Origin: Hallerella succinigenes
GTDB taxonomy: Bacteria; Fibrobacterota; Fibrobacteria; Fibrobacterales; Fibrobacteraceae
Assembly: GCF_002797675.1 (NCBI RefSeq)
Contig: NZ_PGEX01000001.1
Location: forward strand, 2,852,001-2,916,000
Direction of reading: 5' to 3'
Length of the DNA: 64,000 nt
The translations under genes were made by a program, and so were the position numbers. Positions 48,313-56,169 of the stretch are shown piece by piece (position 1 is the stretch's first letter; each line of letters begins with the position of its first letter). The notes under the pieces were generated by a model, which saw nothing but the letters and a program-made list of their open reading frames with translations, made no database searches and had not been told where the DNA came from.

Positions 48313-48888
48313 TTACTTCAAAGAATTAAATTCTGCACACTGGAGTTCTTCGAGGCGGTTACCCATAGCCTGGTTACGGGTACGGGCGTTGCCGAATTTT
48401 TCCGGGATGCGGAAGCAGTATTCATATTCGTTGCCGGCATCGGTCGGAATTGTGAGCTTGAACGCGCGGACTCGGTTCTCGCGTTTTTTGCTTGTGCCGC
48501 GGTAACCTTCGTGGTACTCGTAGCGGTTGCGAATTTTCTTTAAGCGGGATTCCTGGTCAAAGCGCAATTCTTTGGTGATAGGTCCGGAAAGTTCGACGGG
48601 GAAGTTTCCCGGAATGCGAAGTTCTAGACGGTCTTCTGCCATGACGATTTTCGCGTCTTTCGGAGCAATCAGGTAGCGTTCTTTGGCAATGTTGCGGTAG
48701 GACCTAAAGCGGACGGTGCGGACACCGCAGAGTTCTTTCATGTCCGGTTGTTCGACGAAATCGATTTCGCGGCATACGGGTGGCATGTTGTCTGGCATTT
48801 CCAGGTTACTGCCGTCGGATGTTCCTCCGCAGGCATTCAGCAGGCATAAGAACAAACAGCAAAATCCCAACGCAATTTTAAAATTCAT
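48313..48888 (-). CDS. Predicted lipoprotein, unknown function
   Basis: 191 residues from ATG 48888. The signal peptide ends in lipobox LNAC (about residue 19). The mature region includes several Arg/Glu-rich segments and a YEYCFRIPEKFGN part but no recognisable family. Convergent with the Nif3 gene, 7 bp apart. Confidence 0.7.
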   Translation of the reverse strand: MNFKIALGFCCLFLCLLNACGGTSDGSNLEMPDNMPPVCREIDFVEQPDMKELCGVRTVRFRSYRNIAKERYLIAPKDAKIVMAEDRLELRIPGNFPVELSGPITKELRFDQESRLKKIRNRYEYHEGYRGTSKKRENRVRAFKLTIPTDAGNEYEYCFRIPEKFGNARTRNQAMGNRLEELQCAEFNSLK

Positions 48889-48947
48889 AGTTTTAATATA
48901 ATTCCAAGAGTTATAAAATGCTTGCAAAAATCTAAAAATGTTGAATT

Positions 48948-51641
48948 TTATTGGATTTTTAAGAGCAGAGAATCCAAACGGACGGTGAGCTTTTTTGCAC
49001 CTGAAAGACCTAGATGGTCATCATTTGCAAAATCTTCGGATTCGTAATCGTTTTTGCCATTCTTGTATTCGTCCAAGATGTAGAAATTGTCTTTGACTTT
49101 TGCGATGGAATCGAGTGTGTTCAAAAGCATTTTGGCGTCCGAAAGCGAAGGTCCGTAACGTCCCCAGATGTTTTCCTTGGAAATGTAGAGCGGGTTTTGC
49201 GGGAAGACGATGCCGACAACGTTGACCCCATAGGTCCTAGCGACGTCGATAATTGAGCACAACTTCTGAATATTGTACTCGGCGCTTGTTTTGTTGTATT
49301 TCGAAAAATTCACTTCGGGATTTTCGCTGTAGCCGGTGGAATGAGACTTGTAAAGTCCGCGGTTATAGGCGTAAGTCCCGTATTCATTTGGATCTGGGGA
49401 AATGTTGTCCACGACATATTTTCGCATAAAGGCAGGCACGCCGTCGCTCCAGAAATCATGATGGGCATCGTAGAGGTAACCTGGGACGCTATGATAGAGT
49501 TCTAAGAAATCTTCATCTGTAAAGATCCAGCGGTCGATATCCAGGGCAATCGCAATCGTTTTGATCTTTGGCTCGTGCGGCAGGTAATAATGGCTGATAA
49601 AGAATTCCGTGCCAGCCATGTCTTGTGCGGAATAAGAATGGTTGACCGCATAGCCCGCCGAAATCAGGGTGGGGTCGATGCCGGAGAAGGAACGGGAAGA
49701 TCCGGTGATGATCACTTCCGCATAGGAGCGCGTTGTCCAAAACAGATCCATTTTGACTTTAAGAATGCGGCTTGCGAGATTGGACGTTTCGAGCATGTAC
49801 ACGCCAAGACTGTCGATAGAAAGGGTCGTATCAACAGGGAACATGTTTCTTCCTTGTTCGATCCAAAGGGCTGGATGCCAAAGCTCGTTTCCTTCAACGA
49901 GGGTCAGAACACTGGAATCACGGATATCGACGAGAACGATTTTGGAATGGCGGCCTTCGGAATCGGTCAATGTGGCAAGGATCAGGTTCGGATTGGTGGT
50001 CCATTCGGTGTGGTCAAAGGCGTATCCGTCCGGGGAGGGGATTGCTTGGATCAGTTTGCCGAGACTGTCGGCGATGAGAATGCGTTCGTGGGCAGAATAA
50101 TTTTCATCTGCGAACTTGCGACCGGTTTCGCTGCCAAAATCTAAGAAGAGAGTGCGCTTGGAAGAATCTTTGGAAAGCGATGCGTTGCAAGCCTGCTCGC
50201 CGTTGTACCAGATTGTGTCTGAGTCGTCCGAGTGAACGCGCAAAAGCTTGGATCCGGTGACGGCAAAATTCTTGTCGTAGGAAATCCCTCCGTGATAAGA
50301 GCCGTCAAAAAGCTGAGTCAAGCTGCCGAATTCTTTTTTGTTGAATTGAAGCTCATATGTTTTTTCTTGGAAGAAGGTTCCGTCGCTTTCATTGTTTCCG
50401 CCCGAAGTTCCAAAGATTAGGCTTGTGTCCGTGTAATTGGTGACATGCCAGCGGGGCTCTGCGGCAGAGACTTTCTTGTAGCGGAAGAAGGTCGTGTCTG
50501 CAGCGTTGAAGGCTTGAATGTAAAGAGTATCAAAGCCAGAAATACCTTCCGGTTGCGTCGAATAGGCGATCCATTGGCCGTTCGGTGAAATAGTGAGATG
50601 GTAAGGTTCTCCGCGTTTTTTCGGTTCGAAAACCGCATTGTTTCCACAGGCATATTCAATGACGATGATTTTTCCCAGGTCGTCGTCGCGGAAGGCGAGT
50701 CTCGCATGGGTCGTGCCAATCTTGGATTTTAGAGCCTGTGCGGAAGCGACCGGGATGATGGTTGAATTTGTCGTGCCTTCGCTGTTGAAATACTGGGCAT
50801 TTGGAATGGCTCCGACGGCGAGGCGGAATCCGACGTAATTGGTTTTTGTGGAAGATGTGACCGTGTAAACATCACCGCGGGAATACACCTTCATGTTTTC
50901 TGGTTTGTTCTGGTAGCTTCCGCCTTTGAGAATCCGTTCTCCGAGGGCTCCTCCGTTGGGGGATCCGATGTAGTTCGCAATGGTCGTATCCTTGAAATTG
51001 CCGAGCCAATCATTGACCCATTCCATGGCGTTGCCCGCCATGTCGCAGAGAGTTGTGGAAGATTCCGTGGTGCAAACCGGGTGCAGGGAGTCGTTAGAAT
51101 TTTTTGAATTCCAGGATCCGTCGGGGGTAAAGCCTCCGAATTCCGCTGCGTAGACCCATTCCGCTTCTGTCGGAAGTCGATAGCCATTGGACGATGGGAA
51201 AAAGCTGAGCGCTTCGATACTTGTGCAGTTTCCGTCTACGAACGTCGCTTTGGAGTAAGAATAAGCGGTGTCGAGCTTTTCTTTTTTGCTGCGGGCGTTG
51301 GCGGCGAGGATCGCGTCGTAGTAGGTGATGTTTGTCATCGGCAGGGAATCTGCTTTTTCGATGTCCTTGCCGGTCCATTCCGCATATTCTTTGCGGGTGA
51401 CTTCGTGCTTTCCAATGGAAAAGGCGTAGTCGAAGGAAACCTGCATGGCTGGGGTTTCCGACGAGGAACCTGCCTCATTGGTTCCGAGTGTCGTCGAGTT
51501 GGATTTGGCGGGGATTGCAATCATGCCGACATGGAGTGTGTCTGCATTGGGATCTTCTTCATGGCTAGAGCTTCCGCTTGAAGAATCCGAACAGGCGCAT
51601 ATGAGAAGAAACAAAAGACTGATAAGAATTAAATGAGGCAT
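48948..51641 (-). CDS. TIGR02171-like Fibrobacter lipoprotein: SUMF1 domain, beta-propeller, SGNH-like end
   Basis: 897 residues, matching in length and layout the Fibrobacter paralogous family TIGR02171. Signal with lipobox ICAC, then a Ser-rich linker. Residues ~35-270 are a SUMF1/FGE fold (GYRLPTEAEWVYAAE, DMAGNAMEWVND, YVGFRLAVG). Residues ~290-620 have short repeats typical of TolB/WD40 propellers (PYHLTISPNGQWIAYST). The C-terminal ~230 residues resemble an SGNH hydrolase: ITGSSRSFSGIDP (Ser block) and NDDHLGLSGA (Asp/His block). Surface or periplasm-facing; substrate unknown. No Shine-Dalgarno is visible. Confidence 0.82.
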   Translation of the reverse strand: MPHLILISLLFLLICACSDSSSGSSSHEEDPNADTLHVGMIAIPAKSNSTTLGTNEAGSSSETPAMQVSFDYAFSIGKHEVTRKEYAEWTGKDIEKADSLPMTNITYYDAILAANARSKKEKLDTAYSYSKATFVDGNCTSIEALSFFPSSNGYRLPTEAEWVYAAEFGGFTPDGSWNSKNSNDSLHPVCTTESSTTLCDMAGNAMEWVNDWLGNFKDTTIANYIGSPNGGALGERILKGGSYQNKPENMKVYSRGDVYTVTSSTKTNYVGFRLAVGAIPNAQYFNSEGTTNSTIIPVASAQALKSKIGTTHARLAFRDDDLGKIIVIEYACGNNAVFEPKKRGEPYHLTISPNGQWIAYSTQPEGISGFDTLYIQAFNAADTTFFRYKKVSAAEPRWHVTNYTDTSLIFGTSGGNNESDGTFFQEKTYELQFNKKEFGSLTQLFDGSYHGGISYDKNFAVTGSKLLRVHSDDSDTIWYNGEQACNASLSKDSSKRTLFLDFGSETGRKFADENYSAHERILIADSLGKLIQAIPSPDGYAFDHTEWTTNPNLILATLTDSEGRHSKIVLVDIRDSSVLTLVEGNELWHPALWIEQGRNMFPVDTTLSIDSLGVYMLETSNLASRILKVKMDLFWTTRSYAEVIITGSSRSFSGIDPTLISAGYAVNHSYSAQDMAGTEFFISHYYLPHEPKIKTIAIALDIDRWIFTDEDFLELYHSVPGYLYDAHHDFWSDGVPAFMRKYVVDNISPDPNEYGTYAYNRGLYKSHSTGYSENPEVNFSKYNKTSAEYNIQKLCSIIDVARTYGVNVVGIVFPQNPLYISKENIWGRYGPSLSDAKMLLNTLDSIAKVKDNFYILDEYKNGKNDYESEDFANDDHLGLSGAKKLTVRLDSLLLKIQ

Positions 51642-55527: not shown

Positions 55528-56169
55528 ATGCTAAAATTTGGGATGGTGCTTTGTGCGCTTCTTCTTGTCGCTTGTGGGAGTGACGGATCGAATACGGCGA
55601 ATGCAGATGTGGATGATGATGTCTTGCTGGATTCCCGTGACGGTCGCACCTATAAGACGGTTCAAATCGGTTCACAGGTTTGGATGGCGGAGAACCTGAA
55701 TTATAAGACCGATGGCAGTTACTGTTACGAAGATGACGCCTCGAATTGCAAAATCTACGGACGGCTTTATACTTGGGAAACCGCCATGAAGGTTTGCCCG
55801 AAAGGCTTCCACTTGCCGAGCCGTGCCGAATTCGATACGCTTTTCCAAGCTGTCGGCGGAAAAAAGAACGCAGCGACGTTGTTGAAATCGACTTCCGGTT
55901 GGGAAGGTTATGACGGCGAGGATGGTAATGGAACGGATGCCTATGGATTTTCCGCACTTCCTGCCGGGGAGCGCAGTCGCGCAGAAAAGTATTACTCTCT
56001 TGGATATGATGCGATGTTCTGGAATTCATCCGACGATAATGAATATCTGAACGCACAATTTCCCAGAGTATTTGCTGGCGATATGATCCTCATGAACAAA
56101 TATTCGAATGCAAGTCAGGGCGACGTTTACAAAGAGTATGCCTGTAGCGTCCGATGTGTGAAGGATTAG
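55528..56169 (+). CDS. FISUMP-domain lipoprotein (Fibrobacter major paralogous domain)
   Basis: 213 residues. The signal ends in lipobox LVAC. The mature protein is a FISUMP domain (TIGR02145 type): DGRTYKTVQIGSQVWMAENL (20 residues), YTWETAMKVCPKGFHLPS, then AYGFSALPAGE and a C-terminal SVRCVKD. This domain family is expanded in Fibrobacter and found in some Bacteroidetes; its role is not established. Confidence 0.9.
   Translation: MLKFGMVLCALLLVACGSDGSNTANADVDDDVLLDSRDGRTYKTVQIGSQVWMAENLNYKTDGSYCYEDDASNCKIYGRLYTWETAMKVCPKGFHLPSRAEFDTLFQAVGGKKNAATLLKSTSGWEGYDGEDGNGTDAYGFSALPAGERSRAEKYYSLGYDAMFWNSSDDNEYLNAQFPRVFAGDMILMNKYSNASQGDVYKEYACSVRCVKD

Follow-up and report, generated by a model that had tools for sequence, protein, structure and literature searches.

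We analysed a gene of the TIGR02171 family in a stretch of 64,000 nucleotides of Hallerella succinigenes DNA (contig NZ_PGEX01000001.1, positions 2,852,001 to 2,916,000), which we call the window. The gene probably encodes a lipid-anchored SGNH serine enzyme, an acyl-esterase or acyl-transferase whose target is an envelope polymer, and among the readings that we weighed this one ranked first. Structure prediction gave an SGNH fold for the C-terminal domain, the predicted nucleophile and catalytic histidine did not vary within the family, and profile comparison tied the domain to short SGNH proteins, five of seven encoded beside an MBOAT-like gene.

Predicted fold and active site of the C-terminal domain

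The C-terminal domain (residues 610-897) was folded alone with 87 relatives. AlphaFold2 predicted with high confidence the SGNH fold that a sequence-only reading of the gene had proposed (pLDDT 96.3, pTM 0.94). Acetylhydrolases, GDSL esterases, DltD and PatB occupied nearly all rows of the VIA-align list for this domain. PAF acetylhydrolases matched at Z 14.3-14.9 over about 190 residues (1wab, Z 14.8, 190 residues, 3.2 Å), the sialate O-acetylesterase 7pzg at Z 14.3 (186 residues, 3.4 Å), and PatB 7tjb at Z 12.4 (171 residues, 3.3 Å; Foldseek 1.7e-4). The longest overlaps listed, 241-246 of the 288 residues, were with DltD chains (Z 13.3-14.1, root mean square deviation 3.8-4.4 Å), such as 3bma (Z 14.1, 243 residues, 3.8 Å) and 6o93 (Z 13.8, 246 residues, 4.3 Å). 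The top Foldseek row was the crocagin protein CgnD (8a2n, 1.6e-5), also present in the VIA-align list, and the putative acylhydrolase 4iyj was found at 1.7e-5. A designed scaffold held the top VIA-align row (9hi5, Z 15.3), and the designed scaffolds 9hi4 and 9hi6 were also listed. When solved structures were searched by sequence, neither the C-terminal profile nor the set of standalone relatives described below gave anything convincing. The predicted fold together with the Ser and His supports membership of the SGNH superfamily, at clan level. We filed the domain at that level by fold and Ser/His only, because known members lack the Block V Asp.

We assessed conservation in 173 sequences, the window protein included. 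These were complete open reading frames (ORFs) in which more than 300 aa preceded the domain and the hit extended past position 275 of the 297 positions of the model. They were de-duplicated on the last 320 residues, and other copies of the window protein were removed. ORFs that had lost the C-terminal end were excluded by construction, since a hit had to reach at least model position 276 of 297. Of the 27 rows of this set that were classed as distant, five belong to two other genera with the same family code (G044, G146).

Invariance was limited to 5 of the domain's 288 columns (Y615, G647, S649, P814 and H876). The predicted nucleophile and the histidine are among them, so the conservation of the motifs is more than chance. 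D725 was kept in 172/173 sequences. In the whole-protein model Ser649 is preceded by a strand (643-646) and starts a helix. The motifs GSSR...GIDP and NDDH, named in the sequence-only reading, were found at residues 647-650, running on as SFSGIDP up to 657, and at 873-876. An alignment of family members had been proposed there as a check, and both Ser649 and His876 were present in every sequence. The Asp/His site suggested at the same time was borne out for His876 and not for the Block V Asp, which is Asn873 in the window protein.

Short relatives and known SGNH systems

A search with the C-terminal profile found seven distinct short ORFs in which the first two domains are missing. Not counted were duplicates, a 177-codon fragment and TIGR02171 ORFs truncated where a locus ends. 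An MBOAT-like ORF adjoined or overlapped five of the seven (L148, L177, L204, L208, L209), and Pfam confirmed MBOAT for both neighbour ORFs scanned among these five. There was no MBOAT in the stretch examined for L176 and L178, and the L178 contig is short. Three further weak DUF1574 matches (L207, L210, L211) had an MBOAT-like ORF within the locus. The genome of the window itself has two MBOAT genes, located elsewhere.

A profile of 88 TIGR02171 C-terminal domains matched one built from six of the seven standalone proteins at 99.4% (E 2.3e-21, 243 columns), a value helped by L176, which is among the six and already fairly close to TIGR02171 (2.5e-22). An unrelated-family control for this comparison gave 0.2%. 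The standalone set had seven invariant columns (G, S, N, P, H, G, A), among which are the residues of Block I and Block V together with the Asn and the Pro. In a Pfam scan of four short ORFs, three matched DUF1574 below the cut-off, each also weakly matching GDSL_2, DltD or SGNH; the scan of L176 gave no match. One TIGR02171 protein (G091, L203) also matched DUF1574 weakly (E 0.006). Because of the profile kinship, the MBOAT neighbours and these weak family matches, we place the TIGR02171 domain near the SGNH partners of MBOAT proteins. The DUF1574-related SGNH proteins of Fibrobacterota (PF07611, below cut-off), with which the domain shares the profile match, differ from TIGR02171 in being standalone, 310-508 aa long and in five of seven cases beside MBOAT. 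A 2022 review listed no known activity for DUF1574 (PMC9487903).

The motifs had earlier been compared with the blocks of DltD and AlgX. The comparison with DltD held, as its chains gave the longest of the listed overlaps (241-246 residues), and that with AlgX failed on the permuted order of its motifs. DltD (PF04914) is the partner of the MBOAT protein DltB and has in common with TIGR02171 the SGNH fold and a Ser block that comes before the His block. Its acyl transfer outside the cytoplasm is a proposed parallel for what TIGR02171 may do. The TIGR02171 C-terminal domain differs from DltD in having no Pfam DltD match (E up to 10), in being joined to two extra domains and, in the window protein, in carrying Asn in place of the Block V acid.

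AlgX and AlgJ also belong to the SGNH superfamily. The 2022 review describes them as circularly permuted, with the order H-S-G-N and a DxH motif (PMC9487903). An AlgX-type SGNH domain (PF16822) was rejected for the window protein, since Ser649 precedes 873-NDDH-876 and there was no Pfam ALGX match; an AlgX-like protein is a partner of TIGR02171 in the gene module described below. The peptidoglycan O-acetyltransferase PatB shares the SGNH fold (Z 12.4). Its Block II Gly is replaced, and the Block III Asn and Block V Asp are present (PMC12148441). PatB and TIGR02171 are thus alike in departing at the Block II Gly; TIGR02171 differs in lacking a conserved Block III Asn and in having Asn873 in the window protein.

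Protein architecture, gene module and distribution

Table 1. Features of the TIGR02171 lipoprotein gene, with positions in the window
Feature	Position	Strand	Evidence
TIGR02171 lipoprotein gene, 897 aa + stop	48948..51641	minus	ORF list and NCBIfam match
Signal peptide and lipobox, residues 1-17 MPHLILISLLFLLICAC, lipid-bearing Cys17 (predicted)	51591..51641	minus	sequence
FGE/SUMF1-like domain, residues ~38-280, without FGE cysteine pair	50802..51530	minus	PF03781, VIA-align
TolB-type beta-propeller, residues ~300-597	49851..50744	minus	VIA-align, Foldseek, weak PD40
SGNH domain, residues 610-897	48951..49814	minus	AlphaFold2 model, structural matches
Block I GSSR, residues 647-650, predicted nucleophile Ser649	49692..49703	minus	G647 and S649 in 173/173
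Asn667, end of second strand (Block II region)	49641..49643	minus	172/173
Block V NDDH, residues 873-876, predicted catalytic His876	49014..49025	minus	H876 in 173/173

The ORF of this lipoprotein (897 codons and a stop) is real, and plus-strand frame 1 across the same positions is interrupted by stops. A 189-codon plus-strand ORF nested inside it (49575-50144) was taken as spurious. NCBIfam TIGR02171 matched over the full length (residues 3-896, 966 bits, cut-off 544.35). Pfam FGE-sulfatase PF03781 matched residues 51-275 (E 1.8e-25), and the Pfam PD40 repeat was weak and below its cut-off (E 0.041). Two further full TIGR02171 copies lie in tandem in the same genome (G000:C1 3015432-3020704). 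A separate ORF of this genome (L189:3375-4202 (+), equal to G000:C1 1643374-1644201) carries an FGE-like domain that resembles the N-terminal part of TIGR02171, and it lacks a propeller.

A whole-protein AlphaFold2 model built with 101 relatives contained three domains (pLDDT 91.1, pTM 0.86), namely an FGE/TvpA-type fold, a TolB-type propeller and the SGNH domain. This is the architecture of SUMF1 fold, propeller and SGNH-like part that had been read from the sequence. Residues 31-278 superposed on Treponema TvpA 2y3c (VIA-align Z 27.5, 236 residues, 2.7 Å); FGE, PvdO and PorK matched at Z 21-22 (FGE 1y1e 21.4; PorK 9mzu 21.1). Residues 295-596 superposed on TolB 2w8b (Z 22.3, 260 residues, 3.4 Å), and Foldseek matched TolB 1crz at 1.5e-9.

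We take the active-site Cys pair of FGE to be expected near the C-terminal end of the FGE domain. There was no Cys in residues 240-275 of the window protein; any Cys was found in this region in 31/173 sequences, and two or more in 4/173. TIGR02171 therefore shares with FGE, TvpA and PorK the fold of residues about 31-281 and differs in lacking the FGE cysteine pair, for which reason an FGE enzyme identity was rejected. It differs from PorK also in its score, and an identity as the ring protein GldK/PorK of the type IX secretion system (TIGR03525) was rejected at 32.7 bits against a cut-off of 350.

Among 184 ORFs with a propeller, counted over redundant loci, 179 had the C-terminal domain, three were cut by a locus end and two were internal and lacked it. 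These two 358-codon ORFs (L081:9949-11022 (+) and L102:243-1316 (+)) have a propeller and no C-terminal SGNH domain, and read as shortened or decaying family members.

The N-terminus has the signal peptide and lipobox Cys of a lipoprotein, as judged from the sequence, and Cys17 was kept in 172/173 full-length sequences. The residue after it is Ser in the window protein and in 99/172 sequences, and Asp in 14/172. By the E. coli lipoprotein sorting rule, Ser after the Cys would favour placement in the outer membrane, and the rule of this phylum may differ.

TIGR02171 had been described as a Fibrobacter paralogous family. It proved wider, being above the cut-off in 86/167 Fibrobacterota genomes, with E near 1e-180 in G022 and G154, which have other family codes. 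Of the control genomes, 3/14 gave a weak signal and 0/14 passed the cut-off. Within the 167, a subset of 67 genomes chosen from outside genus codes g1 and g6 was searched with the C-terminal profile; 25 matched, and in G006, G025 and G036 the match came from standalone-type ORFs alone. We took family code f1 as Fibrobacteraceae. Among f1 genomes at least 90% complete, 50/60 had TIGR02171, with 1-11 matches each (median 7 among the 50), and the highest counts per genome, up to 11, were in genus code g6 (probably Fibrobacter). A 4373-base contig titled Bacteroidales (L129) carries two TIGR02171 genes and the gene M, introduced below, in the Fibrobacter order, and is possibly misbinned. Neither the name TIGR02171 nor the combination of SGNH, formylglycine-generating and propeller parts was found in the literature searched, and the family was not treated in the term-matched passages of two Fibrobacter proteome papers (PMC6851124, PMC4619616).

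In f1 the TIGR02171 array is often set inside a gene module. We denote an AlgX-like SGNH protein as X, a transglutaminase-like protein as t, TIGR02171 as T (one to four genes per stretch) and a polytopic protein as M. The order was counted in 73 related loci, which are short stretches, some on one contig. X was seen in 20 of them, followed directly by t in all 20; t was followed directly by T in 20 loci, and T directly by M in 28. One locus had the order t, M, T, as has the genome of the window. X of this genome matched PF16822 at 4.6e-16, and its t (L179:14528-15262 (-)) is membrane-anchored; the transglutaminase-like residues Cys116 and His142 of t were conserved in at least 95% of 24 sequences.

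M is about 500 aa long, and both M proteins tested have 9 hydrophobic segments. Any one Pfam family matched at most 1/15 M proteins (best E 0.031), and no convincing solved relative was found by sequence. Profile comparison with hhalign did not support M as an MBOAT (0.1%, with a small comparison set of 9 rows) or as a PMT_2-type GT-C protein (1.6%, with a small heterogeneous set of 6 rows). About 40 residues at the end of M of this genome (L179:12906-14528 (-), equal to G000:C1 3020905-3022527) resemble the end of the TIGR02171 propeller (KIAVLDIRDSSVHVLASGNDILHPDLW), and other M rows are nearly all gapped there. The tail has the look of a scar left by a TIGR02171 copy that once lay between M and the present array and was lost.

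The phyletic profiles of T, X and M matched closely. In the 60 f1 genomes at least 90% complete, T, X and M occurred together in 49, none of them in 10 (G045, G051, G055, G056, G073, G074, G088, G133, G147, G152) and T alone in one. In G146, M was both weak and split; in G144 it was cut. The absences are spread over four genus codes and so are probably not one event.

No X, M or tandem array was found in 32 other loci of the phylum; L174, which has the same family code and carries X, t, M and T, was set apart from these. In other family codes T adjoined a same-direction Lipase_GDSL_2 gene in 4/32 loci (L163, L164, L169, L171), and a fifth such gene in L162 was not adjacent to T. T is thus linked to a further SGNH protein in two contexts, with the AlgX-like X in f1 and with GDSL genes in other family codes. 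The GDSL-lipase proteins of L164 and L171 have PKD domains above the cut-off, and in both loci the GDSL-lipase gene and the TIGR02171 gene, called from the first start codon, overlap by one base.

Twenty bases downstream of the TIGR02171 gene lies a 204-codon lipoprotein-like gene (window 48313-48927 (-)) with no convincing Pfam or NCBIfam family. It gave nearly always one match per genome and was rejected as a specific partner, because it was present in 105/111 f1 genomes, including G045 and G051, which lack TIGR02171. Another lipoprotein-like gene of the window (55528-56169 (+)) has a Fib_succ_major domain (PF09603, 3.4e-29), which marks another Fibrobacter paralogous family.

Weighing the readings

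In the reading that we favour, TIGR02171 proteins would be exported, lipid-anchored and three-domain, with the C-terminal domain acting as an SGNH serine acyl-enzyme. His876 would activate Ser649, which may remove an acyl group (most likely acetyl) from a hydroxyl of an envelope polysaccharide or place one there; hydrolysis and transfer are both possible. The FGE/TvpA-type domain and the TolB-type propeller would be non-enzymatic and hold the protein to the polymer or to partners. In Fibrobacteraceae TIGR02171 would work with the AlgX-like, transglutaminase-like and polytopic proteins as one envelope-modification module, and the multiple copies, up to 11 matches per genome, may supply variants.

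Several results weigh against this reading, and chief among them are a labile acid and non-canonical oxyanion residues. The Block V acid, three residues before His, is Asn873 in the window protein and not the usual Asp. Column 873 held N in 92, D in 76, G in 4 and S in 1 of the 173 sequences, and on a FastTree tree its state (Asp or not Asp) switched 19 times or more. A relocation of the acid from 873 to 875 was rejected: the raw counts were suggestive, with only 5/173 sequences lacking Asp at both positions, but independent tree pairs were unsupportive (median p 1), and Asp875 did not change in step with column 873 in the tree-based comparison. Some SGNH enzymes without the Block V Asp work as Ser-His dyads, and many CE2 enzymes and EcNanS lack it, according to the 2022 review (PMC9487903); Asn at 873 does not, therefore, exclude activity. 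No Gly was conserved at 668-675, the Block II region (column 672 was P in 60, G in 47, A in 22 and others), and no Block III Asn was conserved at 694-711 in the alignment, so the oxyanion hole looks non-canonical.

The remaining contrary points concern family assignment and gene context. Searched alone, the C-terminal domain gave no Pfam match with E up to 10, although the HMMER filters discard most weak matches in such a search. The 73 related TIGR02171 loci, each of at most 12.9 kb, contained no MBOAT-like ORF, which sets the family apart from DltD; among the other TIGR02171 loci one case was seen, L148, with an MBOAT-SGNH pair less than 2 kb away. The assignment of t as a transglutaminase is weak (Pfam E 0.27), and M is without an assigned family. 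The TIGR02171 copy in the window sits outside the X-t-M module. In one genome, G150, T is present while X and M are absent, and the association of T with M (Fisher, p = 1.5e-10) comes from related genomes, so that its independence is overstated.

A more specific proposal sees TIGR02171 as the variable, lipid-anchored enzyme for terminal acyl transfer in a new Fibrobacterota envelope-acylation machine, X-t-T-M, in which M, no MBOAT by profile comparison, would stand in the place of MBOAT and the SGNH site would be independent of Asp. We regard this fuller version as unlikely.

The second-ranked reading, a surface carbohydrate esterase of plant fibre, also seems improbable to us. The SGNH domain would remove acetyl or other acyl groups from hemicellulose, and the FGE-like domain and propeller would bind glycan. 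SGNH acetylesterases are indeed among the structural matches (acetyl xylan esterase 7ddy, Z 13.2; 7pzg, Z 14.3), TIGR02171 counts peak at up to 11 in g6, probably Fibrobacter, and neighbour cluster 1, presumably an endoglucanase, judged from one of its sequences, adjoins T four times. However, the recurrent partners of T are the AlgX-like, transglutaminase-like and polytopic proteins, the family occurs also in other family codes of the phylum, and the usual SGNH oxyanion-hole residues are not conserved.

Ranked third, and to our judgement the least probable, is a lipoprotein of structural function whose SGNH fold is dead, a PorK-like scaffold with its FGE fold repurposed for assembly. The labile acid and the unconserved Block II and III residues would suit it, as would the PorK 9mzu match (Z 21.1) and the FGE-like domain without the FGE cysteine pair, a state for which PorK is the precedent of a repurposed, non-enzymatic FGE fold (PMC12421860). 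A dead site would be expected to drift, yet Ser649, Gly647 and His876 did not vary in 173/173 sequences, against a mean column identity of 38% in the 88-row alignment; that none of the sequences examined has lost the Ser or the His speaks most strongly against a dead fold.

In summary, a multi-copy, unstudied family gains a testable predicted active site, Ser649/His876, and a linked gene module. The module hypothesis bears on how these bacteria may modify their envelope or substrate, and it predicts which knock-outs would share a phenotype.

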